DNA of 26,225 bases from a virus: IMG/VR virus record IMGVR_UViG_3300042154_001914, positions 1 to 26,225 of that record; one strand, 5' to 3'. Of the stretch, positions 801 through 20,670 are shown piece after piece. How positions within the stretch are numbered: the first letter of the stretch is position 1; the number at the start of each line of letters is the position of its first letter. A model generated the notes under the pieces. It was not told where the DNA came from and ran no database searches. It saw only the letters and a list, made by a program, of their open reading frames with translations. The position numbers were made by a program, and so were the translations under genes.

Positions 801-1349
801 CTATCCTACAACTAAAGTAGCCGAAGTAAATAAAGCAACCATTGCAGTCTCAGTCGCTGCATTTAAAAAGTTTGCATAACATTCTTCTTGAGCTTCAAAT
901 GTCAAAGAATAACCATTAAAGTCACCCATTGCACCACCACTAGACAAAGTACCTGCAGTAACATCTGCTCCGTGGTTTAAACCCATTAAAAAGAATTGCC
1001 CAGAGTTAGTTTGTAGAACTACGTGTGGCATTCCATAACTCAATAATTTGACATTTTTTGAAGTTGCTATATCTTGTTTTTTCAACTTAACATTCAATGT
1101 TTGTGTAAAGAATGTTGTACCTGCGTTTCTGTCGGAATTAATAGTTTGTTCAAACGTATTTTCCGTAGATTTTAACTCGTACTTATATAAACTATCTACG
1201 TTCGTAACCGCCGTAATTAAATCAGTATTTGTAACATCATAAGTTACATCTGATTTTTGAATTTGGTTATTAATAAAGTATATCGCTTTTAAACCTGATA
1301 CACTATCTTTGCAGGATTCAATACGTCCCGCTGCTATACTACATGACAT
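801..1349 (-). CDS. Major tail (tube) protein
   Basis: The 182-aa product begins MSCSIAAGRIESCKDSVSG and contains YKYELKST, INSDRNAGTTFFTQTLNVKL, a KLLSYGMPHVVL block and a late NGYSLTFEA segment. This order of motifs matches the major tail protein family I recall from Bacteroidota siphophages, whose C-terminal half packs as a beta-sandwich in the tail tube. Length fits (about 170-200 aa). It is bracketed by terminators: one lies between the capsid gene and this gene (1364-1397) and another follows it (751-782), so it could form a separate transcript or depend on read-through from the capsid gene. No SD sequence precedes the ATG; the leader is A/T-rich. Confidence 0.8.
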   Translation of the reverse strand: MSCSIAAGRIESCKDSVSGLKAIYFINNQIQKSDVTYDVTNTDLITAVTNVDSLYKYELKSTENTFEQTINSDRNAGTTFFTQTLNVKLKKQDIATSKNVKLLSYGMPHVVLQTNSGQFFLMGLNHGADVTAGTLSSGGAMGDFNGYSLTFEAQEECYANFLNAATETAMVALFTSATLVVG

Positions 1350-1363
1350 AATTTTTATGTATT

Positions 1364-1397
1364 AAAAAAGGGGTAGCGTATTTCTCACCACCCCCTT
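1364..1397 (-). terminator. Terminator between major capsid and major tail genes
   Basis: The minus strand has AAGGGG-G-TGG pairing with CTACCCCTT (9 bp with one bulged G and one G-U pair) around an 11-nt loop, followed by a T run. It starts 23 nt past the capsid stop codon and its T run ends about 14 nt before the next ATG, so some read-through is needed unless there is a promoter I did not recognise. Confidence 0.8.
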
Positions 1398-1419
1398 AGA
1401 TTATTAATTTTATTTAATT

Positions 1420-2436
1420 CTATCCTCCGTAAAGTACACCTTTTGAAGCTTGACCTACGTGTGCTGCTAAAGTGTAGATAGATCTTACGAATTGAACGTC
1501 TCCGTCATTTGTCAAAAGCCCAGTTTCAAATTTCAAAATATCATCTTGTAAATCCGTCAACCACATTATTGCCGCCTTTCTTTGAGCGTAACACATTAAG
1601 TTATTTGGAGTTGGTACGAAAATCATTTCAACACCATTGTAGAAACATTTAGCGTCTGCACCTGATCCATCAAACTCAAAGTTAACTTGTTGCGCTGCAC
1701 CTACAGAGTTGTTAGCTATACGTGCTAATTGTCTCCAAGCTCTTGGGCAATAAATAGCTGTTGGTGAAACTGTATCAGCTAAATTTTCAGCAGGGATTGC
1801 CGCATACACCAAGGCCATTTGCGCAGCAATATTTGAGCTAGTTACCGTTGTTCCAGTTACCTTAATGTAACCACCTAATGCAGAATTGTCATATAAAACA
1901 CGTGAGAAGACCCCGTCAATTAATCTAGGAGTCAACGCTGCTACTGCTGTTTGTGTAGCTGCAGTCATAGAACCTTGAGCCCCTCCCGGAGTTAACGCTG
2001 CAATTGATACTTGAGTTGTTGAAGTAATACCACCCCAAAATAAAGACTCAGCGTCTTGAGAGATATTAGGCCCATATTGTGCTAAAACTGTAGATGCAAA
2101 TTCTGAGCTTTCAATATTCCAAGCTCCCGGATTCATTGATCTACCAAAACGACCTGATCTTAATGCTTCTTGTAAGAATGTTTGTTTGTACTCTAATTTT
2201 GTAGGGGTTACAATTCTGTCATTAATTGACATAGAACCTGAACTAGATAAAGCCGAACCTGTGTACAATTGTGCTGTAACATCAACACCCGATTCGGTAA
2301 TGATTGTACCTGCTTTGATATCAGTTGCGAAAGTTACATAACCTTCTGATACCGTTTTGTTCGCAAATAAAACCTCTTCTAAAATAGGCTCTACTGCTTT
2401 TCCTCTAATGTCTACACTTGTGTAAGAAATTGCCAT
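1420..2436 (-). CDS. Major capsid protein
   Basis: The 338-aa product is Ala/Thr/Ser-rich, lacks membrane segments and sits directly after a scaffold-like gene and before the major tail protein, the usual place for the capsid subunit. It contains AIYCPRAWRQLARIANN, FYNGVEMIFVPTPNN and a C-terminal IMWLTDLQDDILKFETG block followed by VQFVRSIYTLAAHVG, which resembles the C-terminal A-domain of HK97-fold capsid proteins from Bacteroidota phages. An internal 20-residue repeat is visible around the two AALTP motifs (nucleotides near 1928 and 1988). There is a strong terminator after the gene, consistent with high-level expression of this product relative to those downstream. The start is 3 nt after the stop of a 55-aa gene. 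Confidence 0.85.
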   Translation of the reverse strand: MAISYTSVDIRGKAVEPILEEVLFANKTVSEGYVTFATDIKAGTIITESGVDVTAQLYTGSALSSSGSMSINDRIVTPTKLEYKQTFLQEALRSGRFGRSMNPGAWNIESSEFASTVLAQYGPNISQDAESLFWGGITSTTQVSIAALTPGGAQGSMTAATQTAVAALTPRLIDGVFSRVLYDNSALGGYIKVTGTTVTSSNIAAQMALVYAAIPAENLADTVSPTAIYCPRAWRQLARIANNSVGAAQQVNFEFDGSGADAKCFYNGVEMIFVPTPNNLMCYAQRKAAIMWLTDLQDDILKFETGLLTNDGDVQFVRSIYTLAAHVGQASKGVLYGG

Positions 2437-2439
2437 TGT

Positions 2440-2607
2440 TTATTTGTTTTTATTTAATTTATAATGTTTCAAATCATTGATTAACCATTCAATTTGTTCA
2501 TTTGTTAAGTGACCTTTACAGTATGTTCTTACTGTTTTTGTACCTAATGCTTTAGTGAACATATCGTAATTAACACCTACTTCAAATGGATTGCAAAAAT
2601 TACCCAT
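2440..2607 (-). CDS. Small protein (55 aa) between scaffold and capsid genes
   Basis: ATG at 2607 to TAA at 2440 gives 55 residues starting MGNFCNPFEVG and containing TYCKGHLTNEQIEWLINDLK, a compact amphipathic helix pattern. The gene overlaps the end of the scaffold-like gene by 8 nt and stops 3 nt before the capsid ATG, the tight spacing seen through the whole operon, which supports it being real. I recall similarly placed small proteins in related phages but know no function; a head-assembly role is inferred from position only. Confidence 0.7.
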   Translation of the reverse strand: MGNFCNPFEVGVNYDMFTKALGTKTVRTYCKGHLTNEQIEWLINDLKHYKLNKNK

Positions 2608-3166
2608 TCATTCTACTTTTAATGTCTCTAAATCTCTCTAATGGAGTTAAAGGTTTGTTATTTACTGACTTGTTCTCAGGGTTGTGTTTAATTGGTTTAA
2701 CTTCTTCAAGTTCTACAACTTCCTCAACTACTTCTTCAACCTTAGATAACTCAGTAATTTTAGCCTCTAACTCAGTAATTTTAGCCTCTAATTTTGAAAA
2801 GTGTTGCTCCTCAGTTGTTGTTTTAACTATCTTTTTTGCTGTTGTTGTTTGTGGTGCTACTTTCTCAGCTTCTACAGGTACTTCAGTTGGTTCTTCAACT
2901 TCTGTTTCTTCTGACACTTCACCAATTGAAGCTATAATACCTGAAACTTCAACTACTAATATCCTGCCGTCTGCAAGTTCATATTCTCCCGTCTCTAATT
3001 CTACTAAAGCACCCTCAGGCCCCACGATAAAAACTGCTTCACCAACCTCAAACATATCAGCTTGTATAGTTGTCATTCCATCTGCTAAGGGCATATCCTC
3101 AAGTTTTGTCTCCATTCCTAAAAAGGTTTTAAGTGTTTTAATTGCTTTTTTTACTTCTTTGTTCAT
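2600..3166 (-). CDS. Scaffold-like protein, acidic with coiled coil (188 aa)
   Basis: Residues roughly 35-80 form a beta-rich segment (AVFIVGPEGALVELETGEYE, then LADGRILVVE) of a kind I recall in proteins upstream of capsid genes in Bacteroidota phages. The middle is an acidic, low-complexity stretch rich in Glu/Val/Thr, and residues about 125-155 form a coiled coil with the heptad repeated as KITELEAKITEL. The C-terminus is basic. Gene order (protease, beta-helix protein, this gene, capsid) and acidic helical composition suggest an internal scaffold cleaved or expelled during prohead maturation. That role is inference; the beta-rich part is not typical of scaffolds. The start carries the TTAATCGTT motif 8 nt upstream and follows a 61-nt gap, so it may begin a transcription or translation unit. 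Confidence 0.68.
   Translation of the reverse strand: MNKEVKKAIKTLKTFLGMETKLEDMPLADGMTTIQADMFEVGEAVFIVGPEGALVELETGEYELADGRILVVEVSGIIASIGEVSEETEVEEPTEVPVEAEKVAPQTTTAKKIVKTTTEEQHFSKLEAKITELEAKITELSKVEEVVEEVVELEEVKPIKHNPENKSVNNKPLTPLERFRDIKSRMNG
2748..2789 (-). repeat. 21-bp tandem repeat in the scaffold coiled coil
   Basis: Two perfect head-to-tail copies of a 21-bp unit (plus strand AACTCAGTAATTTTAGCCTC plus T) encode two copies of the heptad AKITELE. Exact nucleotide identity indicates a recent duplication of one coiled-coil heptad. Confidence 0.8.
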
Positions 3167-3174
3167 ACCATTTT

Positions 3175-3183
3175 AACGATTAA
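3175..3183 (-). promoter_or_regulatory. Late-gene start motif TTAATCGTT, copy 2
   Basis: On the minus strand TTAATCGTT stands exactly 8 nt before the ATG at 3166, with ACAA 8 nt further upstream. Spacing and sequence match the copies at 725-733 and 12233-12241. Confidence 0.5.
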
Positions 3184-3227
3184 ATTTATACTTGTTTCTA
3201 TTTATTTACTTAACTATTTGATTATGT

Positions 3228-4514
3228 TTATTTTATCTCTGTAATTACAAAATTCATATCCGTAACTGTTATGTTTTGACCCGAAGTATTATTGGCGCAC
3301 CATATCTCTATATAATCCCCAACTGAATGTTGCACTACACAATTAAAGAATACATTTTCTGAACGACCACCACCATTTGAAGTTGATTTAGTTCGTGACG
3401 GAGTTCTAACCGCTCCTAACTTGCTATCGTAAAAACCGAACTCACAAACGTGGGACGCTCCCGAAGTGAACGAAACTGAGCAGGAAATTAAATACTTTCT
3501 ACTTATTGTAGCGTCGTTTGTCAATCTATTATTTGAGTGTGTATATTTAGAATTATCAGCACTTGCAGTTGTTGTACCTAATACTTTTGTAAATGTACTA
3601 GATGCACCTATAACAGTAGCTGTAGCATTATTTTGCATATACAATTGACCGTTAACCGCTGTATTTGTAATACCAACACAATTAATAAATAGTGACTTAT
3701 TGCTTGTATGATCTACTCCCGTAATATAAGTTCCACCACCTGAGAAATTGACTGTATCTAATATGTAACGCTCATCTGATATTGTTGCACTTGTAGAAGT
3801 ATTTATTCCTGTTTCACCTGACAATATTACAAAAGATGAATAAATAATCCTAAAACGTCTTGAAACTGTTAAGGTAGATGGTAATGTAATAGCTGTTTTC
3901 GTTGATGCACAATCGAATAAACAATTACTCATACCAATAGTTCCAATCGTACCGTCAAATGTTAACCCACCACTATTTAAGAAGGCACTATCTGCCATGA
4001 TAAAGTTGGTATAATCTTTAATCGTTCCAACTGTTGCACAATCTGTAAAATTAACCCCGAACCAATCGAGTGCGGTTGTCGTTCCATCACCATCTAAATT
4101 AAGTACCGTTCCATGAGTGAAAGTAATATTACGAATAGGCAAAGAATACACCGAAGTAATTAAGGCTGTTGATGAATTTAAACCCGTAGATTTAATTCTA
4201 CAATTTTCAGAACTTGCACCGAGTATAGTTGTATTTTCTCCACATACTAAACGATCACCTGTTAAATCTACAACCGTAGTAAAATAATATGTTATGCTAG
4301 GCAGTAAAGTAATAACTCCACTTACTGCAGTTGGTAGGTCTGACTTGCTATTAACGAAAATAATATTACCACTAGAAATCGAACTAATAGCACTACTGAA
4401 ATTATCATAAGAAATACGCTGTAAAACTTGCGTTCCGTTATCATAATAAATATAATCACTATCCGTTATGGTAGTTGCTTCTTTAAACCGCCTATTATAA
4501 TTTAAGTCAATCAT
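3228..4514 (-). CDS. Beta-helix protein with jelly-roll-like C-terminus; possible fibre/decoration protein
   Basis: The 428-aa product has an N-terminal adaptor-like segment (about 1-50), then many short irregular repeats of strand-turn-strand (about 60-300: repeated N/T/S-rich turns, LxxxxFxN/D patterns such as VNFTDC, SNCLFDC, VNFSGG, SLFINC) typical of right-handed parallel beta-helices. The last ~100 residues (SRKYLISCSVSFTSGAS..., FFNCVVQHSVGDYIEIWCAN) look like a C1q/TNF-type jelly roll, a common receptor-contacting or trimerising end of phage fibres. No enzymatic residues are evident. It lies in the head gene cluster between protease and scaffold, unlike a normal tail-fibre location, so a capsid-attached fibre or decoration is possible. 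It overlaps the protease stop by 4 nt (ATGA). Confidence 0.65.
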   Translation of the reverse strand: MIDLNYNRRFKEATTITDSDYIYYDNGTQVLQRISYDNFSSAISSISSGNIIFVNSKSDLPTAVSGVITLLPSITYYFTTVVDLTGDRLVCGENTTILGASSENCRIKSTGLNSSTALITSVYSLPIRNITFTHGTVLNLDGDGTTTALDWFGVNFTDCATVGTIKDYTNFIMADSAFLNSGGLTFDGTIGTIGMSNCLFDCASTKTAITLPSTLTVSRRFRIIYSSFVILSGETGINTSTSATISDERYILDTVNFSGGGTYITGVDHTSNKSLFINCVGITNTAVNGQLYMQNNATATVIGASSTFTKVLGTTTASADNSKYTHSNNRLTNDATISRKYLISCSVSFTSGASHVCEFGFYDSKLGAVRTPSRTKSTSNGGGRSENVFFNCVVQHSVGDYIEIWCANNTSGQNITVTDMNFVITEIK

Positions 4515-5101
4515 AATTTAGATAGCAAATCTTTAATTTCTTCAATCAACTTTTCTTCTTCTGTTTGTTCACTCATTTTAAGTTGATCCAAACCATCAAA
4601 CATACCTTCTATAGAAAACCCGTTAAATTTACCCAACTTAACACCCTCGTAAACTTCATCATTATAGATTTTCATCTTAACAACCCACGCACCTTTAACG
4701 GCATTTAAACCGTATATGTTAGATTTGTCATTTTTTGGATCTTCAACTATCCAACTTTCAATCAAAGAAACTCCGTTAACTGGCTTTTCATGGTCAATAG
4801 TAACGTTATTTGCACGTAAATTTTTCATGTAAAGCTCTTGTACTTTCTCAATTGTTTGTTCTGAAAACTCAATATTAAATTCGACATCGTTTTTTCGTCT
4901 TAATATCTTCTTATTTGGCACTAATGCAAGTCCGATAACCTCCCTTTTTTCTTCATCAATTACTTTTAATTCAACTTTTAAGGCATTTAACATAATGAAA
5001 TCTTCTTCTATGGCCGGAGCGTCGACAAAACTTATTGCAAAAACCCCTTCTTTTAGTTCATCTTTAATCGTTAACTCGATTGTTTGTAGTTCTTTTTTCA
5101 T
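4511..5101 (-). CDS. XkdF-like prohead serine protease
   Basis: This 196-aa product starts with a beta-rich domain containing SFVDAPAIEEDF and EVIGLALVPNK, then NNVTIDHEKPV with a candidate catalytic His104, and KFNGFSIEGMF with candidate nucleophile Ser163. The spacing and the DHE...GFSIEG pairing match the XkdF/herpesvirus-assemblin-like prohead protease family, which cleaves scaffold and capsid during head maturation. The C-terminal ~25 residues are a charged helix, often the part that contacts scaffold. It lies upstream of scaffold and capsid as expected. The start is 4 nt after the tape measure stop; the end overlaps the beta-helix gene by 4 nt. Confidence 0.8.
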   Translation of the reverse strand: MKKELQTIELTIKDELKEGVFAISFVDAPAIEEDFIMLNALKVELKVIDEEKREVIGLALVPNKKILRRKNDVEFNIEFSEQTIEKVQELYMKNLRANNVTIDHEKPVNGVSLIESWIVEDPKNDKSNIYGLNAVKGAWVVKMKIYNDEVYEGVKLGKFNGFSIEGMFDGLDQLKMSEQTEEEKLIEEIKDLLSKL

Positions 5102-5105
5102 ATTT

Positions 5106-6917
5106 TTATAACGTTGCGTTTCTTAATCTGTTTCTATCAAGTGATTGTTGTGTAGACATTTCGCCACTTACTACATAAGCTTGAACAGGTGCTTGTTTTA
5201 ATTGTTGTAATTGGTTTGTGCCGTTATTACCTACTATATTGAAGTTTGGAGTTATAACGTTTTGAGGAGTTGCACCACCACCGCCACCAGTCGAAGGAGC
5301 AGAACCACCACCACCCGTAGCGCCACCTACATTGAATTTTGTAGATGCTATTTTCTTTACATTTAATAAACCTGCAGTAAGTGCCGCTCCTGCTGCTGCA
5401 ATACCTAATCCAACTCCAACAACTGGAATACTAGATAACGAAGCATAAGCACCTGTTGCAGCTTTATAAGTGTCAATTGTTGCATTTGCTATATTCGCAG
5501 CCTTTTGAATTTTAAATGCTGTCTCTTGTTGTTTTCTAGATTTACCTGCAAATAGTTCAGATAAATTTGCAATAGTTGTAAATGTACTTTGAACTGCGTC
5601 AATTTTTTGATTTTGTAAAAGTTTATCTGCTTCTAATTTCTTTTTATCTATTTCATCTTGTGCTTTAGTTTCAGCATCTCTATATTTATCATTAATAGCT
5701 TTTAACTCATCTTTTTGTGCTTGTTCTAATATTGCACTATCAGTATTGTATATTTTAGCTTGCTCAATTAATAAAAAATATTTGTCTTGCGTATTTTGAA
5801 CTTCTAATTGTTCATCTGTTAATTTAGAATTATAGTAATCGTTTTCGGCTTCTTCTTTTTCCGCTAAGTATTGATTTTCTAAGTTTTTTAAATTTCTTAA
5901 TCTTTCTTTTTCAGTGTTAAAATCTTCTAAGTCTTGTGCTTTTTTTGATTCTTTATTTTTATCTCTATTAACTTTATTTTCTGCACTTCTTTTTGCGTTT
6001 GCATCTTTTTGTGCATTTAATAAATCGCTATTGTGTTGAGCCTCTAATATCTTTAAATCAAACTTATCCTGTTTCTGTTGTGCGTATTGTTCAGCAGTTA
6101 ATTTTGTACCGCTGTCATGCGTCAACTTTCTATATCTTATCTGTTCTTCTAATCTTGATTTTTCTAATTGAAATATTTGTTCTGAATTTGCACCTTCTGC
6201 CTTTGCTAAAGCTATTTTATTTTTACTAGATGTGTTTAGCTTTGAAGTGTATTTATCTACTTCATCTTGACTTTGTTTCATCAATCTAATAGACAATTCA
6301 TTTTGTCTATTTAATTCTTTTTGAGCTTCTGCATTTTCATCTGTTGAACGAGTCAATAAATAAAAAGCACCAACCAAAGAACCTATTGCTGTAACTATTA
6401 AAAGAATAGGATTTGCAGCCATAACAACATTTAAAACCCTCATAGCTGCTGCACCTACAATTTGAGCTGCTGTTAAAACTTTTTGTCCTATTGCTGTTTG
6501 ACCTATAACCGCTTTTAATTGTATAAATGAATCTTTAGCTTCTCCCAAACCTTGCAACCCTTGAGACAAAGCCATAGCACTTTGCACCTTCAATAAAGTA
6601 GCTTCAAGTTCTTTAGAATCTACACCAATTAAACCTAAAGCACCTTGATAAGCTGCAAAACCACTTGCAACACCGCTTAATGAATTTGTTAAAGCATTAA
6701 ATTTAGCATCTGGATTAAATGCATCCGTTAAATTCTTTGCATCTCCTATAGCATCTTTTAATTGTGCTGCTTTTCTCGCTGCATTTGTCGCTGCTTCTGA
6801 CGTTGCTCCAAACTTTTCCGATAATGTTTCAACCTCTTTTTGGGCTGTTTTTAATTGGCTCTTTAAACTACCTAAGTTAGTTTCTACATTTAAATTAACT
6901 GTTTTAGTTTCTGCCAT
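5106..6917 (-). CDS. Tail tape measure protein
   Basis: The 603-aa product has an N-terminal helical region with SLKSQLKTAQKEVETLSEKF (about 17-36), a hydrophobic segment at about 168-188 (NPILLIVTAIGSLVGAFYLL), a long charged coiled coil (about 195-430), a second Ala/Gly/Ile-rich hydrophobic stretch (about 490-518) and a Gly/Asn/Gln-rich tail. This is the classic tape-measure layout. At roughly 1.5 angstrom per residue, a figure from known siphophages, it would give a short tail of about 90 nm. It is flanked by other tail genes but sits upstream of the head protease and capsid genes, an unusual order. Its start overlaps the preceding 52-aa gene by 14 nt. Confidence 0.88.
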   Translation of the reverse strand: MAETKTVNLNVETNLGSLKSQLKTAQKEVETLSEKFGATSEAATNAARKAAQLKDAIGDAKNLTDAFNPDAKFNALTNSLSGVASGFAAYQGALGLIGVDSKELEATLLKVQSAMALSQGLQGLGEAKDSFIQLKAVIGQTAIGQKVLTAAQIVGAAAMRVLNVVMAANPILLIVTAIGSLVGAFYLLTRSTDENAEAQKELNRQNELSIRLMKQSQDEVDKYTSKLNTSSKNKIALAKAEGANSEQIFQLEKSRLEEQIRYRKLTHDSGTKLTAEQYAQQKQDKFDLKILEAQHNSDLLNAQKDANAKRSAENKVNRDKNKESKKAQDLEDFNTEKERLRNLKNLENQYLAEKEEAENDYYNSKLTDEQLEVQNTQDKYFLLIEQAKIYNTDSAILEQAQKDELKAINDKYRDAETKAQDEIDKKKLEADKLLQNQKIDAVQSTFTTIANLSELFAGKSRKQQETAFKIQKAANIANATIDTYKAATGAYASLSSIPVVGVGLGIAAAGAALTAGLLNVKKIASTKFNVGGATGGGGSAPSTGGGGGATPQNVITPNFNIVGNNGTNQLQQLKQAPVQAYVVSGEMSTQQSLDRNRLRNATL

Positions 6918-7062
6918 ATTTTCTAGATTTTATTTTTCTAACTCCTTGTTTTAACGCTTCCATTGAGCTTTTTGGTATCTCATTAATACCCTTTGCAATA
7001 TCTATATTTTCCGACTCACCGTAAAAGTTAGAAATTGATAATAATTGTAATAAATTTTTCAT
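6904..7062 (-). CDS. Small protein (52 aa) upstream of the tape measure
   Basis: ATG at 7062 to TAA at 6904 encodes 52 residues, beginning MKNLLQLLSISNFYGESENI and ending in a basic stretch (RKIKSRKYGRN). The start overlaps the previous stop as ATGA and its end overlaps the tape measure start by 14 nt, so it is translationally locked into the tail operon. I do not recognise a family. Given the location, an accessory tail-assembly role is possible. Confidence 0.65.
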   Translation of the reverse strand: MKNLLQLLSISNFYGESENIDIAKGINEIPKSSMEALKQGVRKIKSRKYGRN

Positions 7063-7364
7063 AAATTAATTAGTATATTTTCCGTAAATGTAACCCCAAA
7101 AGTATCCGTCCAACTCATATCTAAATTAGGTAAATATGCTGTGCCTTGTTCTGATATTCTGTTATATCCATCTTCAGTTATTCTTTGATAACTTGTCTCC
7201 GTTGTAATGTTGTAAATAGGGTCTGGGTCAGTTGCAATAGTTACCACCAATAATGTATCGGTTGTGATATTTGACGGTACAGGAGTAACCCCAACACTAC
7301 CTGTGTAAGTTACCCCGTTTATATCTGTTTGATTCGGCACTAAGCCTTCTATTTCGTATATCAT
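7059..7364 (-). CDS. Tail-region protein of unknown function (101 aa)
   Basis: The 101-aa product is rich in Thr, Val, Ile and Pro with alternating strand-like segments and no Lys-rich or membrane regions, suggesting a small all-beta protein. There is a near-repeat YQRITEDGYNRISEQGTAY at about residues 60-80. I do not recognise a named family. ATGA overlaps join it to both neighbours (7361-7364 and 7059-7062), indicating coupled translation with the large tail protein upstream. Confidence 0.65.
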   Translation of the reverse strand: MIYEIEGLVPNQTDINGVTYTGSVGVTPVPSNITTDTLLVVTIATDPDPIYNITTETSYQRITEDGYNRISEQGTAYLPNLDMSWTDTFGVTFTENILINL

Positions 7365-9403
7365 TGTATTACTTTTCTAAAGTCATTAATCAATTCTAAA
7401 GATACTTCACCCGTTGTTATGTCTGAATTAAAAGAGTTAATTATATACCTCTTATCTTGTATAACGAGCCTGTCGTTTAAACGTAACGAGGTGACTAAAC
7501 CTATAGGGAAATAAGCCTTAATTTTAGTTAGTCTATTCTTAGTATTAAATAGGTTTGATAGGTACCCGAAATAATAAGTGGCAAATAATGAGTTGTCAAT
7601 TATCTTATCATACCATGTTGAATTATCACTAGAGAAATTAAGAGAATAAATTTGATTATTATACTCCAAATCTTGACCGAAAATTGCTGTATTTGTTATT
7701 GATGTTTCGGTTGTACCATCAAAAAAACGAACAGTAAAAAAAGGCGCATGACCGTTGTAATATAATAGAATAGGTTTTGGTACATATGGCTTTAAATCAG
7801 GATAACTAGTTAATGCATATCCAACTTGTATATTTGTATTTGAAAACTTTTGAAACTGTAGATTTTCAAATGGTACACTAATATTAAATTCCCCACCATC
7901 ATATGGGTAATCATTTGAAATATCTCCATACTCCCGTCCATTTGCATCACCAAAAGCTCTATTTGTAAATGATTCACTTTTTTGATAGTTGAATGATACT
8001 TTTTTATAAAGTGGCAACCTATCAATTGATATAGTGTCTGTATCAACATATTTTGTTATGTCAGTTGTTGCGCCTTTACTATACCAATTGTCCAAAGGTT
8101 CTATTTGAAAAGTATCAACTCCAACTGAATAGCAAGTTAAATTAAATTGTTTTAATATACCGCTAAAAAAGTCTGATATTGTTATGTCGGGCATATTGTC
8201 GGATATACCTACATAAGCAGCAGGCACGTTTAAAGATGGCACTATCTGTCTCGCAATTACACCACCACCACTTACCGAGTATGCTGTCGTAGTTCCAGCG
8301 AATGTAACCGTATAATTACTAACCCTATCAACTATAATGCTATACCGTATATCTGTATTAATATCTGATCTAACTTTAAATGTCATCACATCTTCATAAG
8401 TAGAGCTAGATTCCATTTCATATATTTTTATATTATTTTCAATTGCAGAATCAAGAGTTACTACCTGATAAAATAAACCATTTTTATATACTGAAATTCC
8501 TAAATTAACATTCGCAACTGTCGTGGCATCTAATCTAAAAAAAATAGTTGACTTCATTGGAAAACCATTTGTCGTTCCTCTCAATGTAAACTCCCCACTA
8601 TCATAAACTAAAGGATCTACATTTGCATCATCATTTATGGGTGCTATATCCGTATATGTTAAATATTTTCCGTATTTTTTAGCTTCTATATTATCTATAT
8701 TTTTACACCATAAAAACAGCTTCTTAAATTTGTTTGTTTGAAGGAATGTCGATTGAAAAGTTATATCATATTTTGTTTGAATTGCTTGAAATATTTTACT
8801 TACTTTAACTGCGGGAAATAGCTCGGCATAGTCTATTCTGCCAACACTAGTATTAATATCTGTGCTTGTTGCATCGTTGTAGCTCCATGCTTTTTCGCTT
8901 GTTATTAAAGGAAATCTAACATCATAATCGGTCACGCTATTTGTTACCCTATCTTGAATTTCAGCTCCGCTTGTAACATCGGTTAAAAATGAATAGTTTA
9001 AATCACTTATCTTAGCAATTCCAAACTTATCTTTTAAACTAGTTAAGTCACCATAGAAAGTAATTGAATAATGTTGTACTTTTCCATCTTTTACGCTACT
9101 CCCCTCTAATTGTATTTTACCCGTTCTAAATGGAACTAAACCAATCTCAATGTAGGCAAATCTTCTTTGATTGTGATCTATTTTATTATTGACATCATTC
9201 TGATAAAAGTATTCAAAGATTTTATTGTTATTATCCGAAGCGGGAACGGTAAAAGACTGACTAAAATCTGTATAAACTTTTGAAATATCCTGAATATTTT
9301 GAATCGAACTAGATATGTTTATTTTTTCATCATCAAATAAATCTAATTTAGTGTAATCGTTTTGCGTTGTCCCTTCAATATAAATATCTACCTGTCGCTT
9401 CAT
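7361..9403 (-). CDS. Large minor tail / baseplate-like protein (680 aa)
   Basis: The 680-aa product begins MKRQVDIYIEG and carries an N-terminal region with DISKVYTDFSQSFTVPASDN, a block I recall from a conserved structural protein of Bacteroidota siphophages. A central segment (about residues 390-450: NMPDITISDFFSGILKQFNL, then TFQIEPLDNWYSKG and DITKYVD) also fits that family. It is beta-rich throughout, without membrane or enzymatic motifs. The position between neck genes and tape measure suggests a distal tail or baseplate hub component. It overlaps both neighbours by 4 nt. Family assignment is from recall, not a search. Confidence 0.68.
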   Translation of the reverse strand: MKRQVDIYIEGTTQNDYTKLDLFDDEKINISSSIQNIQDISKVYTDFSQSFTVPASDNNNKIFEYFYQNDVNNKIDHNQRRFAYIEIGLVPFRTGKIQLEGSSVKDGKVQHYSITFYGDLTSLKDKFGIAKISDLNYSFLTDVTSGAEIQDRVTNSVTDYDVRFPLITSEKAWSYNDATSTDINTSVGRIDYAELFPAVKVSKIFQAIQTKYDITFQSTFLQTNKFKKLFLWCKNIDNIEAKKYGKYLTYTDIAPINDDANVDPLVYDSGEFTLRGTTNGFPMKSTIFFRLDATTVANVNLGISVYKNGLFYQVVTLDSAIENNIKIYEMESSSTYEDVMTFKVRSDINTDIRYSIIVDRVSNYTVTFAGTTTAYSVSGGGVIARQIVPSLNVPAAYVGISDNMPDITISDFFSGILKQFNLTCYSVGVDTFQIEPLDNWYSKGATTDITKYVDTDTISIDRLPLYKKVSFNYQKSESFTNRAFGDANGREYGDISNDYPYDGGEFNISVPFENLQFQKFSNTNIQVGYALTSYPDLKPYVPKPILLYYNGHAPFFTVRFFDGTTETSITNTAIFGQDLEYNNQIYSLNFSSDNSTWYDKIIDNSLFATYYFGYLSNLFNTKNRLTKIKAYFPIGLVTSLRLNDRLVIQDKRYIINSFNSDITTGEVSLELINDFRKVIQ

Positions 9404-10482
9404 ATTAATGGATTTGAAAAGTTAAAATCTAAAGCATAATTTATCAATTTATTATTGATATTTTTCTGCAAATCAACTTGCTTTGTTGTAATTGTCGCAG
9501 GTCTATTATTAATCAATATCCTATCACTTAATAGTATCTGTTTGATAGTATCTTTAAAATCCTCAGTAACCCACCCTGAGTTAGTTTTAATTGATTCGTT
9601 ACCATTTGTGTTGAATGTACTAACTAATCCTTCTTGAGCGTTAAATGTACCTTCATCAACTCTGTAATTTTTGTATGATTGACTTTCTATATTTAAAGAA
9701 TCTGTTGAGTTTTTAAATAAAAATTCTCTTTGCCACGCTCCGAACCTATTTATAAAATCTAAAATTACAGGTGAATATTTACACTCCTCTTGTGGCTTAA
9801 AATAATAAGTAGCTAAAACAGTTGTCGTATCATTATCTATAATTTCTAGCTTATTACCGTCCGCCCAATAAGTAGGGTAAACCTTGTAGATTTGCTTCCA
9901 CTCTGGTAGCTCAGGACTTGCTTCACTTATCGTGTTAGTTACCGTTGCGCCACTTACTAGATTTGTGTATTTATATCTTAAATTATAACTACTAGTATAG
10001 CTATTATAGACAGCTATATCTCCAGGTTTTAAAGTGGCATAAGTTTCAGAGCTATCATAGTGATAGTAATATGTTTTAGGATCTAATAAGTAAGGATCAG
10101 GATTTACATTTATTCCATTTTGTTGGTAGGCATAACCTTTGAATCCTGAATAATCGATACTGTCTAATAATGTATAAGTTGTTCCTACCAATTTATAACG
10201 CTTTATATTAACATTTGTGTAAATTTCTGTATCTAAATCATAATTTAAAGTATTACCATTAATACCATAAGTTAAATTAGTTATGTACTCGTTTATGTAC
10301 GGTGAAACGTCGAAATTTACCTTTGTTACATTAGTTGCCGGAGTTAATTTACTTAGCGTATATTGTGGTAAACTAGGATAGGAAGCTCCTTGCTTCCATA
10401 AAAATATCTCAACTAAACCACCAACTACACCAGTTCCACTAACAGGGATAATATAAGGACTTCTTGTTAATATTATATTCAT
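9400..10482 (-). CDS. Conserved minor tail protein (360 aa)
   Basis: A 360-aa beta-rich protein starting MNIILTRSPYIIPVSG. It contains VNFDVSPYINEYI (about 82-94) and, near residue 240, PVILDFINRFGAWQREFLFK followed by S-T-D-S-L-N, patterns I associate with a tail-structure protein found beside the large tail protein in Bacteroidota phages. The end includes PATITTKQVDLQK and LDFNFSNPLI. It is likely a tail-tip component working with the next gene, with which it overlaps by 4 nt. The biochemical role is unknown. Confidence 0.65.
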   Translation of the reverse strand: MNIILTRSPYIIPVSGTGVVGGLVEIFLWKQGASYPSLPQYTLSKLTPATNVTKVNFDVSPYINEYITNLTYGINGNTLNYDLDTEIYTNVNIKRYKLVGTTYTLLDSIDYSGFKGYAYQQNGINVNPDPYLLDPKTYYYHYDSSETYATLKPGDIAVYNSYTSSYNLRYKYTNLVSGATVTNTISEASPELPEWKQIYKVYPTYWADGNKLEIIDNDTTTVLATYYFKPQEECKYSPVILDFINRFGAWQREFLFKNSTDSLNIESQSYKNYRVDEGTFNAQEGLVSTFNTNGNESIKTNSGWVTEDFKDTIKQILLSDRILINNRPATITTKQVDLQKNINNKLINYALDFNFSNPLI

Positions 10483-11009
10483 TTTTTTGGTTGTTCAATT
10501 GTTTGATTAAATAACGTAACTGCATCCAAACCGTATTTAGTGACTAATTCTTCAGGCAATCTTTTATAAGCTGCTTCAAATGGTTTTGTAAAAAATAAAC
10601 TTGGTTTTATTCCATTGTAATAAATTGACCTAGCAATTAAGAATTGAATTGATTTTCTGAAACCTACTGCGCTAATCGTTCTACCTGTAAATTTTCCATT
10701 TTTTCCACGTGGTGCAAGTCCCTTTCTTACTATCCATTTATCAAGTGCTTTTGGTGGTGGCATCTTTGTACCGAACTTATAAGCGGTCGTCCAAACTGAT
10801 CTTTTACCATTAACTCCCTTATCCTGAAAAGTACCGTAATCCTCCATTGAGAAATACAAGCTAAATGAATTTGCCATTAGTTTGTATTCGCCTTTTAAGC
10901 TATTATAAAGCTTCTTAGAACTATTCTTTTTTAGCTTAGTAAGATTTGTTCTACTTTCTTTTATAACGTAGTCACGAAACTTCTTTAATTCCTTTTCAGT
11001 TTCTAACAT
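10479..11009 (-). CDS. HK97-gp10-like neck/tail-completion protein
   Basis: The 176-aa product is basic, with an N-terminal helix (ETEKELKKFRDYVIKESR), a YGTFQDKGVNGK segment near 58-69, TKMPPPKALDKWIVRKGLAP (about 81-100), then KSIQFLIARSIYYNGIKPS and FFTKPFEAA. The small size, the YGxFQDxG-type turn and the rigid helix followed by the IARxIYxxGI motif match the gp10-like tail-completion family of Bacteroidota phages. Such proteins sit at the head-tail interface. It overlaps the 151-aa gene before it by 7 nt and the 360-aa gene after it by 4 nt. Tail-completion is family-level inference. Confidence 0.65.
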   Translation of the reverse strand: MLETEKELKKFRDYVIKESRTNLTKLKKNSSKKLYNSLKGEYKLMANSFSLYFSMEDYGTFQDKGVNGKRSVWTTAYKFGTKMPPPKALDKWIVRKGLAPRGKNGKFTGRTISAVGFRKSIQFLIARSIYYNGIKPSLFFTKPFEAAYKRLPEELVTKYGLDAVTLFNQTIEQPKK

Positions 11010-15495: not shown

Positions 15496-15496
15496 A

Positions 15497-15667
15497 TTAA
15501 TATCTTTTTTCCATTATCTTAAATAAATCCGAACTACCTAAGCAATAAGAATTTTTACTCATTTTAATCAATTCTTGTTTTGCTTTCTCATCTAGTTTAT
15601 GCCTTTCAACAAAACTATCAATGTCCTCTAAAATAGTTTTAGACGTTGTTTCCTTTAGTTTTTTCAT
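15497..15667 (-). CDS. Small helical protein (56 aa)
   Basis: ATG at 15667 to TAA at 15497 gives MKKLKETTSKTILEDIDSFV and then a Lys/Glu-rich helix and SSDLFKIMEKRY. It overlaps the previous gene by 29 nt and ends 1 nt before the next ATG. I recognise no function. Composition and fit in the operon support it. Confidence 0.6.
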   Translation of the reverse strand: MKKLKETTSKTILEDIDSFVERHKLDEKAKQELIKMSKNSYCLGSSDLFKIMEKRY

Positions 15668-15764
15668 TGATGTAAATTTTAATCATTGATTCTATTGATT
15701 GGTTCATATATTTTTCTCCGTTTTCTCTAAACCAAAGAAAAAAATCTAGTAATTCCTTTTCCAT
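15639..15764 (-). CDS. Small protein (41 aa)
   Basis: The 41-residue product MEKELLDFFLWFRENGEKYM continues with an amphipathic helix (SIESMIKIYINE). Similar tiny proteins of the form 'E-L-L-x-F-x-x-W/F' are common in flavobacterial phages, from recall, with no assigned role. It shares one base with the MazG-like stop (TAATG) and overlaps the next gene by 29 nt. Confidence 0.58.
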   Translation of the reverse strand: MEKELLDFFLWFRENGEKYMNQSIESMIKIYINEKTKGNNV

Positions 15765-16243: not shown

Positions 16244-16609
16244 TTATTCGGCTAATATAACTATTTTTTTGAATTCGTCAAGTGATCTAACTAAAAAATA
16301 TTTATGTCCTTCCAAAGTTACTATATTTTCAAATTCTTTTTGCTTATCTGATTGCTTACCTTTGTAATCTTTAAGCTCTATAAAGTATGTTTTACCTTTA
16401 TTAAGTACAATCAAATCACTTACACCAGCTAAAACTCCTGATTTAATATATTTTGAATTATTTCTTGTTGCTTCATTTGGTACTGAAAAACAAATTATGT
16501 TATTTTTTCTACAATAATCTACAATTTCAACTTGAATTGTAAACTCTGACTTGTTGCTTAATGCCTTAATTTTACTCTCACTCATCTTTTTTATGCTTTC
16601 TAACTTCAT
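16244..16609 (-). CDS. VRR-NUC domain nuclease
   Basis: The 121-aa product carries the VRR-NUC (PD-(D/E)xK) pattern: FTIQVEIVDYCRKNNI, AGVSDLIVLNKGKTYFIELK with Asp65, Glu78 and Lys80, then KGKQSDKQKEFEN and a GHKYFLVRSLDEF ending. These stand-alone phage VRR-NUC proteins are thought to be structure-specific endonucleases acting on replication or recombination intermediates, for example Holliday-like junctions. It is the first gene after the octamer array and follows the primase-helicase and SF2 helicase, so a replication-fork role fits. The first octamer copy is directly before the ATG. Confidence 0.88.
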   Translation of the reverse strand: MKLESIKKMSESKIKALSNKSEFTIQVEIVDYCRKNNIICFSVPNEATRNNSKYIKSGVLAGVSDLIVLNKGKTYFIELKDYKGKQSDKQKEFENIVTLEGHKYFLVRSLDEFKKIVILAE

Positions 16610-16610
16610 T

Positions 16611-16878
16611 TTGTAACCTTTTTATGTTTTGTAACTTATTGATTTTCACTACTTGTAACCTTGTAACCTTGTAACCTTGTCGTTTTAAAACTATTTTCTA
16701 TAAATATAATATATGTCATTATGTATGATGTGATGTAATATATATGTTTTCTATAATACTTTTATTCTAATATTTTAGGTTACAAGGTTACAAAGTAGTT
16801 TATTTATTTGATTTGTAATAACTTAAGGTGTAACCTTTTTGTTTTTTTTTAGGTTACAAAAAGGTTACAAGGTTACAA
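16611..16878. repeat. Octamer array TTGTAACC / GGTTACAA, candidate replication origin
   Basis: This 270-nt gene-free stretch holds nine perfect octamers. In forward (plus) orientation TTGTAACC is at 16611, 16653, 16661 and 16669, the last three head-to-tail with no spacer; in reverse, GGTTACAA is at 16778, 16786, 16852, 16863 and 16871. Variants lie at 16629 (TTGTAACT) and 16828. Between the two groups, 16681-16770 is almost pure A/T. Iterons flanking an A/T-rich unwinding zone beside replication genes is the layout of an initiator-bound origin. The two arms can also form a long hairpin. No ORF of note crosses it. Confidence 0.68.
16829..16869. repeat. 13-bp perfect inverted repeat within the array
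   Basis: TGTAACCTTTTTG (16829-16841) and CAAAAAGGTTACA (16857-16869) are exact inverted copies separated by 15 nt. It is not followed by a T run in the direction of transcription, so it is a poor terminator and better read as a protein-binding or cruciform site. Confidence 0.7.
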
Positions 16879-16879
16879 A

Positions 16880-19063
16880 TCAAAACGGTGGTTCGTTATT
16901 GTTTTTCATAAATTCAAATTCTTTATACAATTTATATCCTTTCTTAACTTTTCCCATATAACGATATAGTTTTATTTCCATTTTGTGTTTAGTAACTAAT
17001 CTTTTAATATCGTATTTACTTAGTTGTGTTTTGAATTTTATAGACATATAATCCATTATCTCACCTTGATTTAGGATTACTTCATTTATAAAATTTTCGC
17101 TTTGTTCAATCGAAAATTCAGTAAAAAATAAATCTTCAAAAATATCAATCTCTAAATTCGCTGTTGTATTTTCGTTTAGGTAGTCTATATCTTCTTTGCT
17201 AAATATCCTAAATTCAAAATTATCTTTATACATTGTATATGCACATTTTAGTAAAGCATCTTTATTAAACGCTTTTGCTCGTTCATAATCAACTGAATTA
17301 AATTCTATTGGTAAAATTCTTCTATTTCCTGTTTCGTCCTTTAAAACAGCTGAATCGTTTGTTGTGCCACAAAGCATAGTTCTTCTTTTTAAGTCAACAT
17401 CTAAATGACCATAAGGAAGTCTAACAGTTATTTTATTTTTTTCTGTTATTTTTTTAAAGTTTTTTACGTCCTTTCCTGCCATTCCGCCAAACTCATCATT
17501 TAACATTATTAAAGATGTAGCCATTCTTTTCATTACATCTTTACCAGCTTCTTCCATGCTTTCATCAATAAAGTATTTTCTTAATTCTAATGGTAAAATG
17601 TTTCTAAAAAATGATGTTTTTCCGCTCGCTTGTTTGCCACATAAAACTAGAACTAATGGGCTAACCTCTTCGTGTTCGTATGGAGCATTCCAATTGTGTA
17701 TAGCACCGACTAACCATTTTCTTAAAACCCATCTATTAAAAATATTAAACGGTTGAATTAAATCTGCGTATTCGTCTATTTCGTTCCCTGTTATTTCTGT
17801 GTTATTATTTTTAAAATAGTCATCAATAGGATTATAACTTAATGATTTTGAATTAAATATAAGTTGTCTTACATCTGTTCCACTTACTTTAAAATCAAAA
17901 TATTTCTTTGCGTGAACGGTTATTGTATTAATAATTTCATCGTTTAATATTTCGTTACCAATTTCCATTAATTGGTTAAAATCATTTTTAATTATCGGAT
18001 AGTTTTCTTTTATAAAATTGTCTAGTTTGACCGTTTCATTATTCTCATCTTCTATATTTTTAACAAAATTTTCTTTTGAATCAATTAACTGCTGAATGAA
18101 TTTTTTATCTGTTGTTGTTGTTCCTAAAACTTCTAATGTTTTAATTACACTTTCAGGAGTTTGAATACTTCCATTTGCTTTTCCTACTGCAACTCTTTTA
18201 ATTATTTTCTTTGAAGTTTCAGAATAAAGTTCGCATCCAGCTTGCTTAGCATAATGATAAAATGTAGAAATATTTATAGTTCCTTTTTTACAAAATTTAC
18301 TATATTGTTTTTCAATTCTTTTAGCATCGTATTTAGAACCGTTTTGACAAATAGCTTTAAAATAATCTAATCCATTTATTCCGAATTCAGAACCAATAGC
18401 GAAACCAATATCACAAAACTTTTTATAATCGTCTTCGCAAAGGTCTATATTTCTACTTTTAATTTGATCTATAATATATGAAAAGTCATCCTGAGCAAAA
18501 AAGAATGTTTCTTTTTTTATTTCTTTCTTTTGTTTTTTAGCTACAAACTTTGATGATTTTTCATTAACATAAATGTCAATATCATATGATATGTATCTAA
18601 GCCTTGAAGCATCTTTACAGGATTGATCAATATCTACATTAAACATATCAGAATAATATTGAGCTAATCCATGAAACGATTCAATAAATAATTCAGGATT
18701 TATTTTGACAAATACGACTAAGCCAGTACCACTAACAGAACGATTTGAACACATTGTGTATTTATCTTCATCTATACGTTTACGAAGTTCTGTATCTACA
18801 ACATCATCAATATCAATTAAAATTAATCCGTTCATTTCTTCAACATTTGCAACTGAACGACCGCCTTGTTTCTGTGTACAACTTCCAGTTATTGCAGGTA
18901 ATTGAGATTTAAAACTATTGTAGATTACTTTATCCTTTATGTTTGCTCTTGCGTTAAAAATCAATCCTTGATGGTCTCCGTTTTTTACTAATTCTACATA
19001 TTTATCAAAATCAATTTTGATGTTATCTTTTTCGAAATGTGTTTTATACTTACTGAATATCAT
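16880..19063 (-). CDS. Primase-helicase (BT4734-type primase, PriCT-2, VirE ATPase)
   Basis: The 727-aa product combines an N-terminal primase-like domain (GLILIDIDDVVD with Asp84/Asp86, SVSGTG at 109-114, and DASRLRYISYD at 151-161, matching archaeo-eukaryotic primase motifs), a PriCT-2-like linker (about 215-275: KKFCDIGFAIGSEFGINGLD) and a C-terminal VirE/D5-type ATPase with Walker A GKQASGKT near 476-483, a MLNDEFGGM Walker B-like stretch and CGTTNDSAVLKD sensor. It should both prime and unwind phage DNA. Its last residues, NNNEPPF, resemble the SSB acidic tip. The start overlaps the helicase stop by 14 nt; the gene ends against the octamer array. Confidence 0.88.
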   Translation of the reverse strand: MIFSKYKTHFEKDNIKIDFDKYVELVKNGDHQGLIFNARANIKDKVIYNSFKSQLPAITGSCTQKQGGRSVANVEEMNGLILIDIDDVVDTELRKRIDEDKYTMCSNRSVSGTGLVVFVKINPELFIESFHGLAQYYSDMFNVDIDQSCKDASRLRYISYDIDIYVNEKSSKFVAKKQKKEIKKETFFFAQDDFSYIIDQIKSRNIDLCEDDYKKFCDIGFAIGSEFGINGLDYFKAICQNGSKYDAKRIEKQYSKFCKKGTINISTFYHYAKQAGCELYSETSKKIIKRVAVGKANGSIQTPESVIKTLEVLGTTTTDKKFIQQLIDSKENFVKNIEDENNETVKLDNFIKENYPIIKNDFNQLMEIGNEILNDEIINTITVHAKKYFDFKVSGTDVRQLIFNSKSLSYNPIDDYFKNNNTEITGNEIDEYADLIQPFNIFNRWVLRKWLVGAIHNWNAPYEHEEVSPLVLVLCGKQASGKTSFFRNILPLELRKYFIDESMEEAGKDVMKRMATSLIMLNDEFGGMAGKDVKNFKKITEKNKITVRLPYGHLDVDLKRRTMLCGTTNDSAVLKDETGNRRILPIEFNSVDYERAKAFNKDALLKCAYTMYKDNFEFRIFSKEDIDYLNENTTANLEIDIFEDLFFTEFSIEQSENFINEVILNQGEIMDYMSIKFKTQLSKYDIKRLVTKHKMEIKLYRYMGKVKKGYKLYKEFEFMKNNNEPPF

Positions 19064-20621
19064 ACTTTTGTTTTAATTTTGTTAATACTGTATCTCTTTG
19101 TTTTATCCATGTTCTGTTTGATGATGATTCTAAATCGGATTGTATTATTTTCCAATACCCTTTTTTAACTGTTGTTTCTAAAAAACGATGAACACCTCCG
19201 TTTAAATTTCTTTGAAATTGTGCTTTATCTACATTGTCAAATTTTCGGACAGCCTGCGAAGTTAAAACTTTTAAAGCGAAAATCTTTCCTTTTCCTTCCG
19301 AGTATCTAATTATTTTATCAATATCAATACCAACTGTATTTACTTTTACTGCAATTCTGTTTAATATTTCTACATCTTTTATCTCGCAGTTATTGAACTC
19401 ACAAGCCTTACATAAACAAGCCTTTATATTCATTAATTGACCGCAATTTTCACAATCTTTTGTTTCTTCTTCGGGTGCTTCTTTTTTAGGCTTGTAATCT
19501 CCTTTACACCAAAATTTATCGTTCCAATCAAAATCTTCTGACCATCTACCTAGTCTTTGAATATTTGTTCCGCCATCAATTACAATAAATTTATCTTTAA
19601 ATACTTTATCTGTAGTTCGTGAACCTCTACCTACTATTTGAATCCATAAAGATAATGAAGATACTCGCCTAGCAACTATTATACATTCAACATCTGTAAC
19701 ATCAAAACCTTTGGTAAAACATCCAACATTAAATAAAACAGATCCTGGAGTATCTCTAAATTTATCTACTGTTTCTTTTCTGCTAAATTCAGTCCAATTC
19801 ATACTATCATACATAAATGTATTTTCAATTTCAGCTTTTAAAAATTGATTAAATAAAAGAATATTTAGGTTTGTATCTTGCGTAAAAATTAGAGTTTTTT
19901 TTCCTTTACAGAATTGTAAGTAATTTTGTAAAACATCCATTTGAAATTTAACATCAAAAACTTCTTCTGAATTAGATACCTCTCCAAATGAATCGAATTT
20001 AAAATCATTCTCATCTACTGGAATAATATAATTTTCATCAGGAACTAAAAAGCCACGCTCTATTAATTTAGAAATCGGAATACCTGTAATAATATCTTCA
20101 AAAATATCAGACAAATAAAAATCTTTTTTAAATTCAATTCTCCTTTCTAAATGTTCTTTATACATTTTTTTATCTTCAAAATCATAGAAGTATTTATCAA
20201 CTCTATTAGATACTGGAGTAGCTGTAAATCCTATTATTTTACAAGTTGCTATTTTTAATATTTGCTCATAACATAAAATATGACATTCGTCAATGATTAT
20301 TAAATCAAAGTCGTTTATCATTTCGGGAGTTTTTTTAATCCTTGATCTTAAAGTCTGAGCCATTGAAATAATAATTTTGTCTTTTGATATTTCTTTGTCT
20401 TTAGCTTCAAATGTTCCAGCACCTTTAATATGGTTTGATGTCTGAATAACTAACTCCGAACTATCAACAAGTATTAAAACACGTCCTTCATAGTTTTCTG
20501 CTAATTCTGAAAAAATAACCGTTTTTCCTCCTCCAGTTGCGAGTTGAACACATATTTTTTTGTGGTGGTTTTGATTTATTTTATCTAATAAATCTTTTTG
20601 GTAATCTCTTAAAATCCTCAT
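19050..20621 (-). CDS. SF2 DEAD/DEAH-type DNA helicase
   Basis: The 523-aa product begins MRILRDYQKDLLDKINQ with a Q-like motif, Walker A ATGGGKT at 28-34, Walker B DECH at 111-114, TATP at 133-136, and motif VI QIVGRGSR at 328-335. A cysteine cluster DCENCG...LCKACE (about 389-408) is probably a zinc ribbon. These are UvrB/ResIII-type superfamily 2 helicases that remodel forked DNA, common in phage replication modules. The ATG at 20621 is preferred over an upstream in-frame ATG at 20663, because the latter lies in a terminator-like hairpin. A leader RNA structure precedes the gene, so its expression is probably regulated. Confidence 0.88.
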   Translation of the reverse strand: MRILRDYQKDLLDKINQNHHKKICVQLATGGGKTVIFSELAENYEGRVLILVDSSELVIQTSNHIKGAGTFEAKDKEISKDKIIISMAQTLRSRIKKTPEMINDFDLIIIDECHILCYEQILKIATCKIIGFTATPVSNRVDKYFYDFEDKKMYKEHLERRIEFKKDFYLSDIFEDIITGIPISKLIERGFLVPDENYIIPVDENDFKFDSFGEVSNSEEVFDVKFQMDVLQNYLQFCKGKKTLIFTQDTNLNILLFNQFLKAEIENTFMYDSMNWTEFSRKETVDKFRDTPGSVLFNVGCFTKGFDVTDVECIIVARRVSSLSLWIQIVGRGSRTTDKVFKDKFIVIDGGTNIQRLGRWSEDFDWNDKFWCKGDYKPKKEAPEEETKDCENCGQLMNIKACLCKACEFNNCEIKDVEILNRIAVKVNTVGIDIDKIIRYSEGKGKIFALKVLTSQAVRKFDNVDKAQFQRNLNGGVHRFLETTVKKGYWKIIQSDLESSSNRTWIKQRDTVLTKLKQKYDIQ

Positions 20622-20626
20622 ACAAT

Positions 20627-20670
20627 AAAAAACCCCATAAATCGGAGGTCGCTGTCTCGTCATTACGGGG
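20627..20670 (-). terminator. Terminator/attenuator hairpin just before the helicase start
   Basis: On the minus strand CCCCGTAA pairs with TTATGGGG (8 bp with one G-U) around a 22-nt loop and is followed by TTTTTT. The T run ends about 6 nt before the helicase ATG, so unregulated termination here would silence the gene. Confidence 0.72.

Follow-up and report, generated by a model that had tools for sequence, protein, structure and literature searches.

The short repeats directly 3' of the primase-helicase gene in this DNA very probably mark where replication starts in a virus of Flavobacterium-like bacteria, and comparison with the loci of about a hundred related viruses suggests that three helicase residues (701, 706 and 708) decide the letters of the repeat. 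The first-pass annotation, made from the sequence alone, had proposed a likely phage replication origin. This is supported as the best reading by the position 3' of the VapE helicase gene, the convergent iterons, the AT-rich core and the conservation of the arrangement. The window, meaning the whole stretch of 26,225 nt that was analysed, encodes a terminase large subunit, and several long ORFs at 801-11009 are structural in look (by eye). The features of the replication module are as follows.

16244..16609, minus strand: gene for a VRR-NUC / Holliday-junction-resolvase-like nuclease (phrog_824/93/5702), without wing-like covariation with the iterons.
16610..16879, no strand: non-coding putative origin region of 270 bases, from the 3' end of the VapE primase-helicase gene to the start of the VRR-NUC-like gene; layout kept in relatives.
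16611..16618, plus strand: outermost iteron TTGTAACC, an exact octamer that abuts the VRR-NUC start codon.
16629..16636, plus strand: degenerate iteron TTGTAACT, a near-copy.
16653..16676, plus strand: three iterons (16653, 16661, 16669) in exact 8-nt tandem, one arm beside the core.
16677..16777, no strand: AT-rich core, presumed melting region, with 16 G/C of 101.
16778..16793, minus strand: inverted pair of iterons in exact 8-nt tandem, the other arm beside the core.
16829..16835, plus strand: seven-base iteron TGTAACC in the orientation opposite to its neighbours, forming a 14-nt inverted repeat with 16863-16870.
16852..16878, minus strand: three iterons (16852, 16863, 16871), spaced 11 and 8 nt, beside the helicase stop codon.
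16880..19063, minus strand: VapE-type primase-helicase of 727 aa, presumed origin-binding initiator, with BT4734-like_N, PriCT_2 and VapE-like domains (Pfam and PHROGs).
16913..17143, minus strand: C-terminal winged-helix domain, aa 641-717, in which R701, V706 and K708 covary with iteron bases.
About 16937-16975, minus strand: wing of the winged helix, about aa 697-709.
19050..20663, minus strand: SF2 (ResIII/DEAD) helicase of the same replication module, without covariation comparable to that of the wing.

On both strands of the window, TTGTAACC occurred 11 times versus a mean of 1.01 in shuffles, and none of 100 shuffles reached 11. Nine of these copies, read as TTGTAACC or GGTTACAA, lie inside 16611-16878, and the remaining two are at 2206 and 23911. 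Simulating the gap by itself 2,000 times with a Markov-1 model gave at most five copies of any octamer. The nine exact copies in 268 nt that had been claimed at first were therefore borne out, as was the enrichment of the octamer at this site relative to the rest of the window. The three copies in exact 8-nt tandem (16653/16661/16669) and the two inverted groups around the core were also found as described, and two near-copies are in keeping with the array (TTGTAACT, 16629; TGTAACC, 16829). The array ends 1 nt from the helicase stop codon (16880, minus strand), immediately 3' of the initiator gene. Domain matches of both neighbours confirmed the placement between primase-helicase and VRR-NUC.

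The one-sided inverted repeat was confirmed, with a length of 14 nt (16829-16842/16856-16869). Two points of the first description were corrected. The core had been called A/T only, but 16677-16777 contains 16 G/C and its longest A/T-only run is 16 nt. The gap is not the only large one in the module, as 15496-15763 is a second stretch of 268 nt in the same region without an ORF of at least 60 aa. The GC skew of the window does not switch at the array, but this carries no information, since almost all genes have the same orientation.

The scans of viral contigs yielded 24, 23 and 80 loci, some of them on the same contigs, which together with the window and one phage record resulted in 66 unique loci. 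Loci without a readable helicase ORF (L054, L057, L058, L059, L125 and L130), loci with a gap below 100 nt (L024, L025, L043, L053 and L118) and duplicates with identical last 200 aa were left out, as were phi46:1 and P12024L (L035 and L036), where no array of this kind could be made out downstream. Nearly all 66 loci have a repeat in the gap 3' of the helicase gene, and its unit varies. The units are TGTAACC, TGTTACC, TGTAACT, TGTAATA, TGTAATG, TGTAATT, GGTAATA, GGTAAGG, AGTTACC, GTTTACT, TTTTACC and others. The expectation that related phages would carry different octamers at the same site thus gave a strongly positive result. A convergent unit pair around a core of 100-124 nt (unit to unit) was detected in 46 of the 66 loci in a first pass, and a second, stricter pass on the remainder brought the labelled loci to 55. 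The 11 unlabelled loci were L027, L092, L095, L099, L100, L101, L114, L116, L119, L123 and L129. Among same-strand neighbours less than 30 nt apart in Flavobacterium-type loci, spacing 8 was the commonest (76/219), followed by 11.

Within the core, a conserved element was seen at 16693-16777 of the window and at the same place in L009, L010, L016 and L029. Read on the helicase strand, it has a TATTATAGAA-like sequence at the helicase-proximal end and a ACATAATGACAT-like sequence in mid-core, and it stays constant while the iterons change. It is a candidate melting or host-factor site.

In the genome collection, 27 stretches matched a pattern, and none of these encodes a relative. Bacteroides phage BK687P5 and Phocaeicola phage BV674P5 showed nothing comparable to the array downstream of their VapE genes, and in TCUEAP1 the gap is missing. 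Cellulophaga phage phi46:1 (L035) is a VapE phage whose helicase gene is followed by a gap of only 3 nt. Repeats of the AAAAGTTA type are located upstream of its helicase gene and before VRR-NUC, so the origin may have moved.

To relate the repeat letters to the helicase, the unit was read from the helicase side towards the core as a-g-T-W-A-y-z, which in the window is T-G-T-A-A-C-C. This reading frame was settled after the data had been seen; like the grouping of residues, it was based on the Flavobacterium-type data and preceded the Streptococcus-type test described below. An earlier scheme, with GTAA-centred, strand-blind labels, already gave residue 708 the top rank for the base that follows GTAA. 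It was replaced by the core-anchored frame because near-identical helicases fell in opposite orientations.

By weighted normalized mutual information (NMI) over about 719 primase columns, R701 ranked first for base a (0.51 versus 0.34 for the next column), V706 for W (0.42 versus 0.24) and K708 for y (0.56 versus 0.29). The best columns for a, W and y reached 0.32, 0.16 and 0.22 in VRR-NUC and 0.23, 0.16 and 0.27 in the SF2 helicase. The residue-to-base counts in the 55 labelled loci of the 66, with ambiguous bases excluded, were as follows.

Residue 708 to y: K, C in 32/32; R, C in 3/3; M, I, V or T, T in 8/8; H, G in 3/3; F, T in 7 and G in 1.
Residue 706 to W = A: V in 27/27, F in 4/4, A in 1/1.
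Residue 706 to W, mostly T: L, T in 13 and A in 1; I, T in 2/2; T, T in 4 and A in 1; Q, T in 1; S, T in 1.
Residue 701 to a: R, T in 24 and G in 4; W, T in 5/5; K, G in 14 and A in 4; T, A in 1.

Exceptions to these rules were seen for 701 (4 loci of the GTTTACT group combine R701 with G), for 706 (L088 and L117) and for 708 (L096).

On a quick tree built without the C-terminus, the labels of a, W and y changed 15, 15 and 10 times, respectively, numbers that recombination may inflate. Independent pairs on this tree followed the expected direction in 7/7 cases for y (P = 0.016), in 10.4/11 for W with 0 opposite (P = 0.002) and in 8.7/10 for a with 0 opposite (P = 0.004). With the alternative grouping of R versus not R, the values for a were 9.0 and 0.6 opposite (P = 0.02). 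When the same test was run over all 515-517 variable columns, 706, 708 and 701 ranked first. Where the unit has W = T, y is C by construction. In the W = A loci only, 708 and y still agreed (5/5 independent pairs, P = 0.06). Similarity of the whole wing was tried as a predictor of the bases and offered a modest gain only, the nearest neighbour being right in 108/150 cases for the whole wing, 103/157 for the rest of the winged helix and 80/152 for the helicase.

Such correlations could also arise by linkage alone, if recombination exchanged the 3' end of the helicase gene together with the array, so that the letters correlate without the wing reading the repeats. The wing does adjoin the left arm, and the modules are mosaic, as the label changes on the tree without the C-terminus indicate. 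Natural pairs of close relatives argue against this explanation. Among 42 helicase pairs that differ by less than 6% over aa 1-640, 25 had the same unit and 17 had different units. The wing difference rate was 0.049 in the same-unit pairs versus 0.498 in the different-unit pairs, while the rates over aa 1-640 were 0.029 and 0.041, respectively. In the sharpest pair (L084 and L131), whose repeats differ at three variable positions, the helicases differed at 8/637 positions over aa 1-640, 0/56 over 641-696, 7/13 in the wing and 0/13 over 710-722. The change is thus confined between 56 identical residues before it and 13 after it. In phage snusmum (L034) and contig L077, 98/99 core bases are identical and yet both arms were switched (arm identity 51/87 and 32/59). 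As the far arm changed too, linkage of the wing to the near arm is not an easy explanation. In addition, VRR-NUC on the other side of the array has no comparable column, and identical residue-base pairings are found again in distinct clades and in another phylum. Linkage alone is therefore improbable.

After the rules had been fixed, viral contigs with Streptococcus-type helicases were scanned; 80 of 209 loci were kept, of which 44 were unique, with identity of the last 60 aa defining duplicates and L221 dropped for having no readable helicase ORF. Convergent arrays around a core of 81-124 nt were found in 41 of the 44. L158, L211 and L215 had no called array and 8 more were outside the frame, so that 33 loci were scored. 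The 701 rule (R701 with T, K701 with a purine) was right in 28, wrong in 0 and ambiguous in 5; the five ambiguous loci all have K701, with A or G at 48/48 sites. The 706 rule was right in 19 loci and wrong in 7, and 7 had no rule. The 708 rule was not counted because the frame fit requires y = C. Judged from these sequences, the 701 rule generalises to Streptococcus-type phages and the 706 rule does so partly. The test was not fully blind, because the rules were drawn up with five named Gram-positive records (SW6, PH15, Javan562, Javan351 and LFP01) already in view; L166 is probably PH15, whose helicase C-terminus it shares, and L184 and L187 are close to Javan562. By eye, 17 named records including SW6 and PH15 comprised 11 with arrays flanking an AT core, 1 partial, 2 unclear, 2 without an array and 1 without a gap.

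The commonest spacing in Streptococcus-type loci was again 8 (45 neighbours). The 8-bp period had been regarded as an uncommon design, but 8 is the commonest spacing in both the Flavobacterium-type and the Streptococcus-type loci. It is the norm of this family, because the layout is conserved in most of the 66 loci and in 41/44 Streptococcus-type loci. Phages of two bacterial phyla thus keep the layout of the putative origin, with different repeat letters.

The Pfam matches of the primase-helicase were PF05272 (E = 6.4e-30), PF08800 and PF08707. An AlphaFold2 model built from 62 sequences had a mean pLDDT of 76.8, with 71-88 in ten-residue blocks of the C-terminal domain. Its C-terminus is a winged helix (H641-649 E660-664 H666-677 H683-692 E698-702 E705-714), the wing strands being 698-702 and 705-714. 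The closest solved structure was PriRep1 with double-stranded DNA (7pds, Z 18.5 over 347 residues), and the next ones, NrS-1 (Z 10.4) and the SaPI5 helicase (Z 9.9), were well below it. If the hairpin has a two-residue turn, the strand limits in the model would make 701 and 706, as well as 699 and 708, cross-strand neighbours, so the residues would probably be on one face of the wing.

What the sequences show is a conserved layout with units that switch in concert and covary with these helicase residues; binding, hexamer loading, melting and origin activity at the array are predicted from it. In the proposed mechanism, the C-terminal winged helix of the primase-helicase would read each 7-8 bp unit via its beta-hairpin wing, with residue 701 setting base a, 706 setting W and 708 setting y. 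Several helicase copies would assemble next to one another along the 8-bp tandem sites that flank the AT-rich core, and thus one hexamer per side would be placed in opposite orientations. The core would then melt, and the helicase/primase would start bidirectional replication.

The primase domain of the same protein offers another possible use for the octamers, as template recognition sites for primer synthesis. The NrS-1 primase-polymerase is described as requiring an 8-nt recognition sequence for priming (PMC7102993), and the NrS-1 C-terminal region resembles the window helicase model at the Z score given above. The covarying residues, however, are in the C-terminal wing outside the primase domain, and arrays inverted about an AT core suit initiator sites on double-stranded DNA, which makes a priming site quite unlikely. 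It is still harder to credit that the array is an operator binding a repressor or autoregulating downstream genes and not a replication start: the iteron at 16611-16618 abuts the VRR-NUC start codon and such sites could also repress VRR-NUC, but a conserved 100-nt AT core with convergent multi-site arms would not be expected of an operator, and the layout is that described for PICI origins (PMC6092414).

The array is, in all likelihood, a SaPI/PICI (VapE)-type origin of a tailed phage, a bidirectional start with units read by the helicase wing, as far as sequence comparison can indicate. PICI origins are described as an initiator gene followed by two iteron sets around an AT-rich region (PMC6092414), and SaPI Rep is reported to use its C-terminal domain on downstream iterons and appears to bind as two hexamers (PMC7581432). 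The putative origin of the window shares the VapE-family helicase, the location directly 3', the two iteron sets flanking an AT-rich region and a presumed C-terminal recognition domain. In contrast to these elements, the window is a tailed phage with a fused BT4734-like primase and its own terminase, and because of the latter it is not a PICI, a satellite that depends on a helper phage for structural and packaging genes. Its array consists of 8-bp tandem units with a GT(A/T)A-type core, and wing residues covary with single bases.

The Streptococcus phages SW6 and PH15 (Aliceevansviridae) have a similar order of an SF2-type gene, primase, VapE helicase and then a gap of 300-350 nt, in which 8-bp tandem units are inverted around an AT core. 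They differ in that the primase is a separate gene, the units are such as GTTACCGT and TGCTACCG, and the matched helicase stretches are less than 30% identical to those of the window. The ori of phage Sfi21 is a close known system that groups with these phages. Iteron plasmids also have repeated initiator sites beside an AT-rich region, with iterons of about 20 bp, or about two helical turns. The family of the window differs from them in its spacing mode of 8 and then 11, in the inverted arms on both sides of the core and in an unrelated initiator. In SCCmec Cch2, the C-terminal domain binds short direct repeats downstream of the helicase gene, as is predicted for the window, and in isolation it is reported to bind the putative Cch2 origin; this helicase belongs to the D5/Primase_Cterm family and has three 5-nt iterons (PMC7581432).

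A search covering literature other than the main SaPI origin papers found no paper on a residue-to-base code for VapE-type initiators. The VapE/PICI-type origin layout was already known; what appears to be new is a VapE-type phage origin with a specificity code legible from natural variation. How an initiator and its origin change specificity jointly without a dead intermediate is an open question. Since near-identical helicases that differ almost only in the 13-residue wing have different repeats, the code is directly testable. If confirmed, it would make the origins of many phages and satellites predictable from the last 30 or so helicase residues, and would help to explain replication compatibility among phages, satellites and origin-attacking nucleases.

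Such nucleases may occur in the relatives. Six distinct loci (L014, L021/L022, L026, L033/L076, L117 and L128) have a GIY-YIG gene within the origin or at its border; the window has none. The T5orf172 genes are located at L033:4741-5304, L014:4692-5261, L026:6236-6808, L021:6470-7051, L117:5236-5811 and L128:5237-5809. T5orf172 (PF10544) and MUG113 (PF13455) domains were present in all five of the origin-inserted nucleases scanned. An HMM of the primase C-terminal domain, run on 1,406 ORFs, gave 115 primase-like matches and 12 others, and these 12 represented five distinct sequences, all of them origin-inserted nucleases. The L014 nuclease was below the HMM cut, its likeness to the helicase C-terminus being seen by eye only. 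The model of the L117 nuclease consists of a GIY-YIG part, a long helix and a winged helix with the same element order as that of the helicase.

By analogy with Odn of phage ICP1, these genes are candidate origin-directed or homing nucleases. Odn is described as a chimera of a T5orf172 nuclease and an origin-binding domain taken from a replication initiator, and was proposed as a driver of origin change in its target (PMC8263062). The origin-inserted nucleases likewise combine T5orf172 with a domain of the initiator's origin-binding type, here the VapE wing domain. They differ in having a C-terminal winged helix and a location inside the phage origin, whereas Odn has an N-terminal RepA_N domain and targets a satellite. 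It seems reasonably probable, with less assurance than for the origin itself, that the wing of VapE-type initiators is a compact residue-to-base code (701/706/708 to three iteron bases) common to phages of two phyla, and that origin and wing rewire together repeatedly, possibly under pressure from wing-copying, origin-directed GIY-YIG nucleases.

When the wing rules were applied by hand to the six nucleases, a number too small to support a claim, y agreed with the local unit in 6/6. For W, L033, L014 and L128 agreed, L021 and L026 disagreed and L117 had no rule; for a, L033, L014 and L026 agreed, and L021, L117 and L128 had no rule or an ambiguous base. The nuclease is present in phage mumin and absent from its close relative snusmum. 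The gaps of L101, L095, L103 and L096 hold two unit types per array, e.g., GGTAATA with GGTAAGG or GGTAGA, and all four helicases have F708. These mixed arrays are possibly intermediates of a unit switch.
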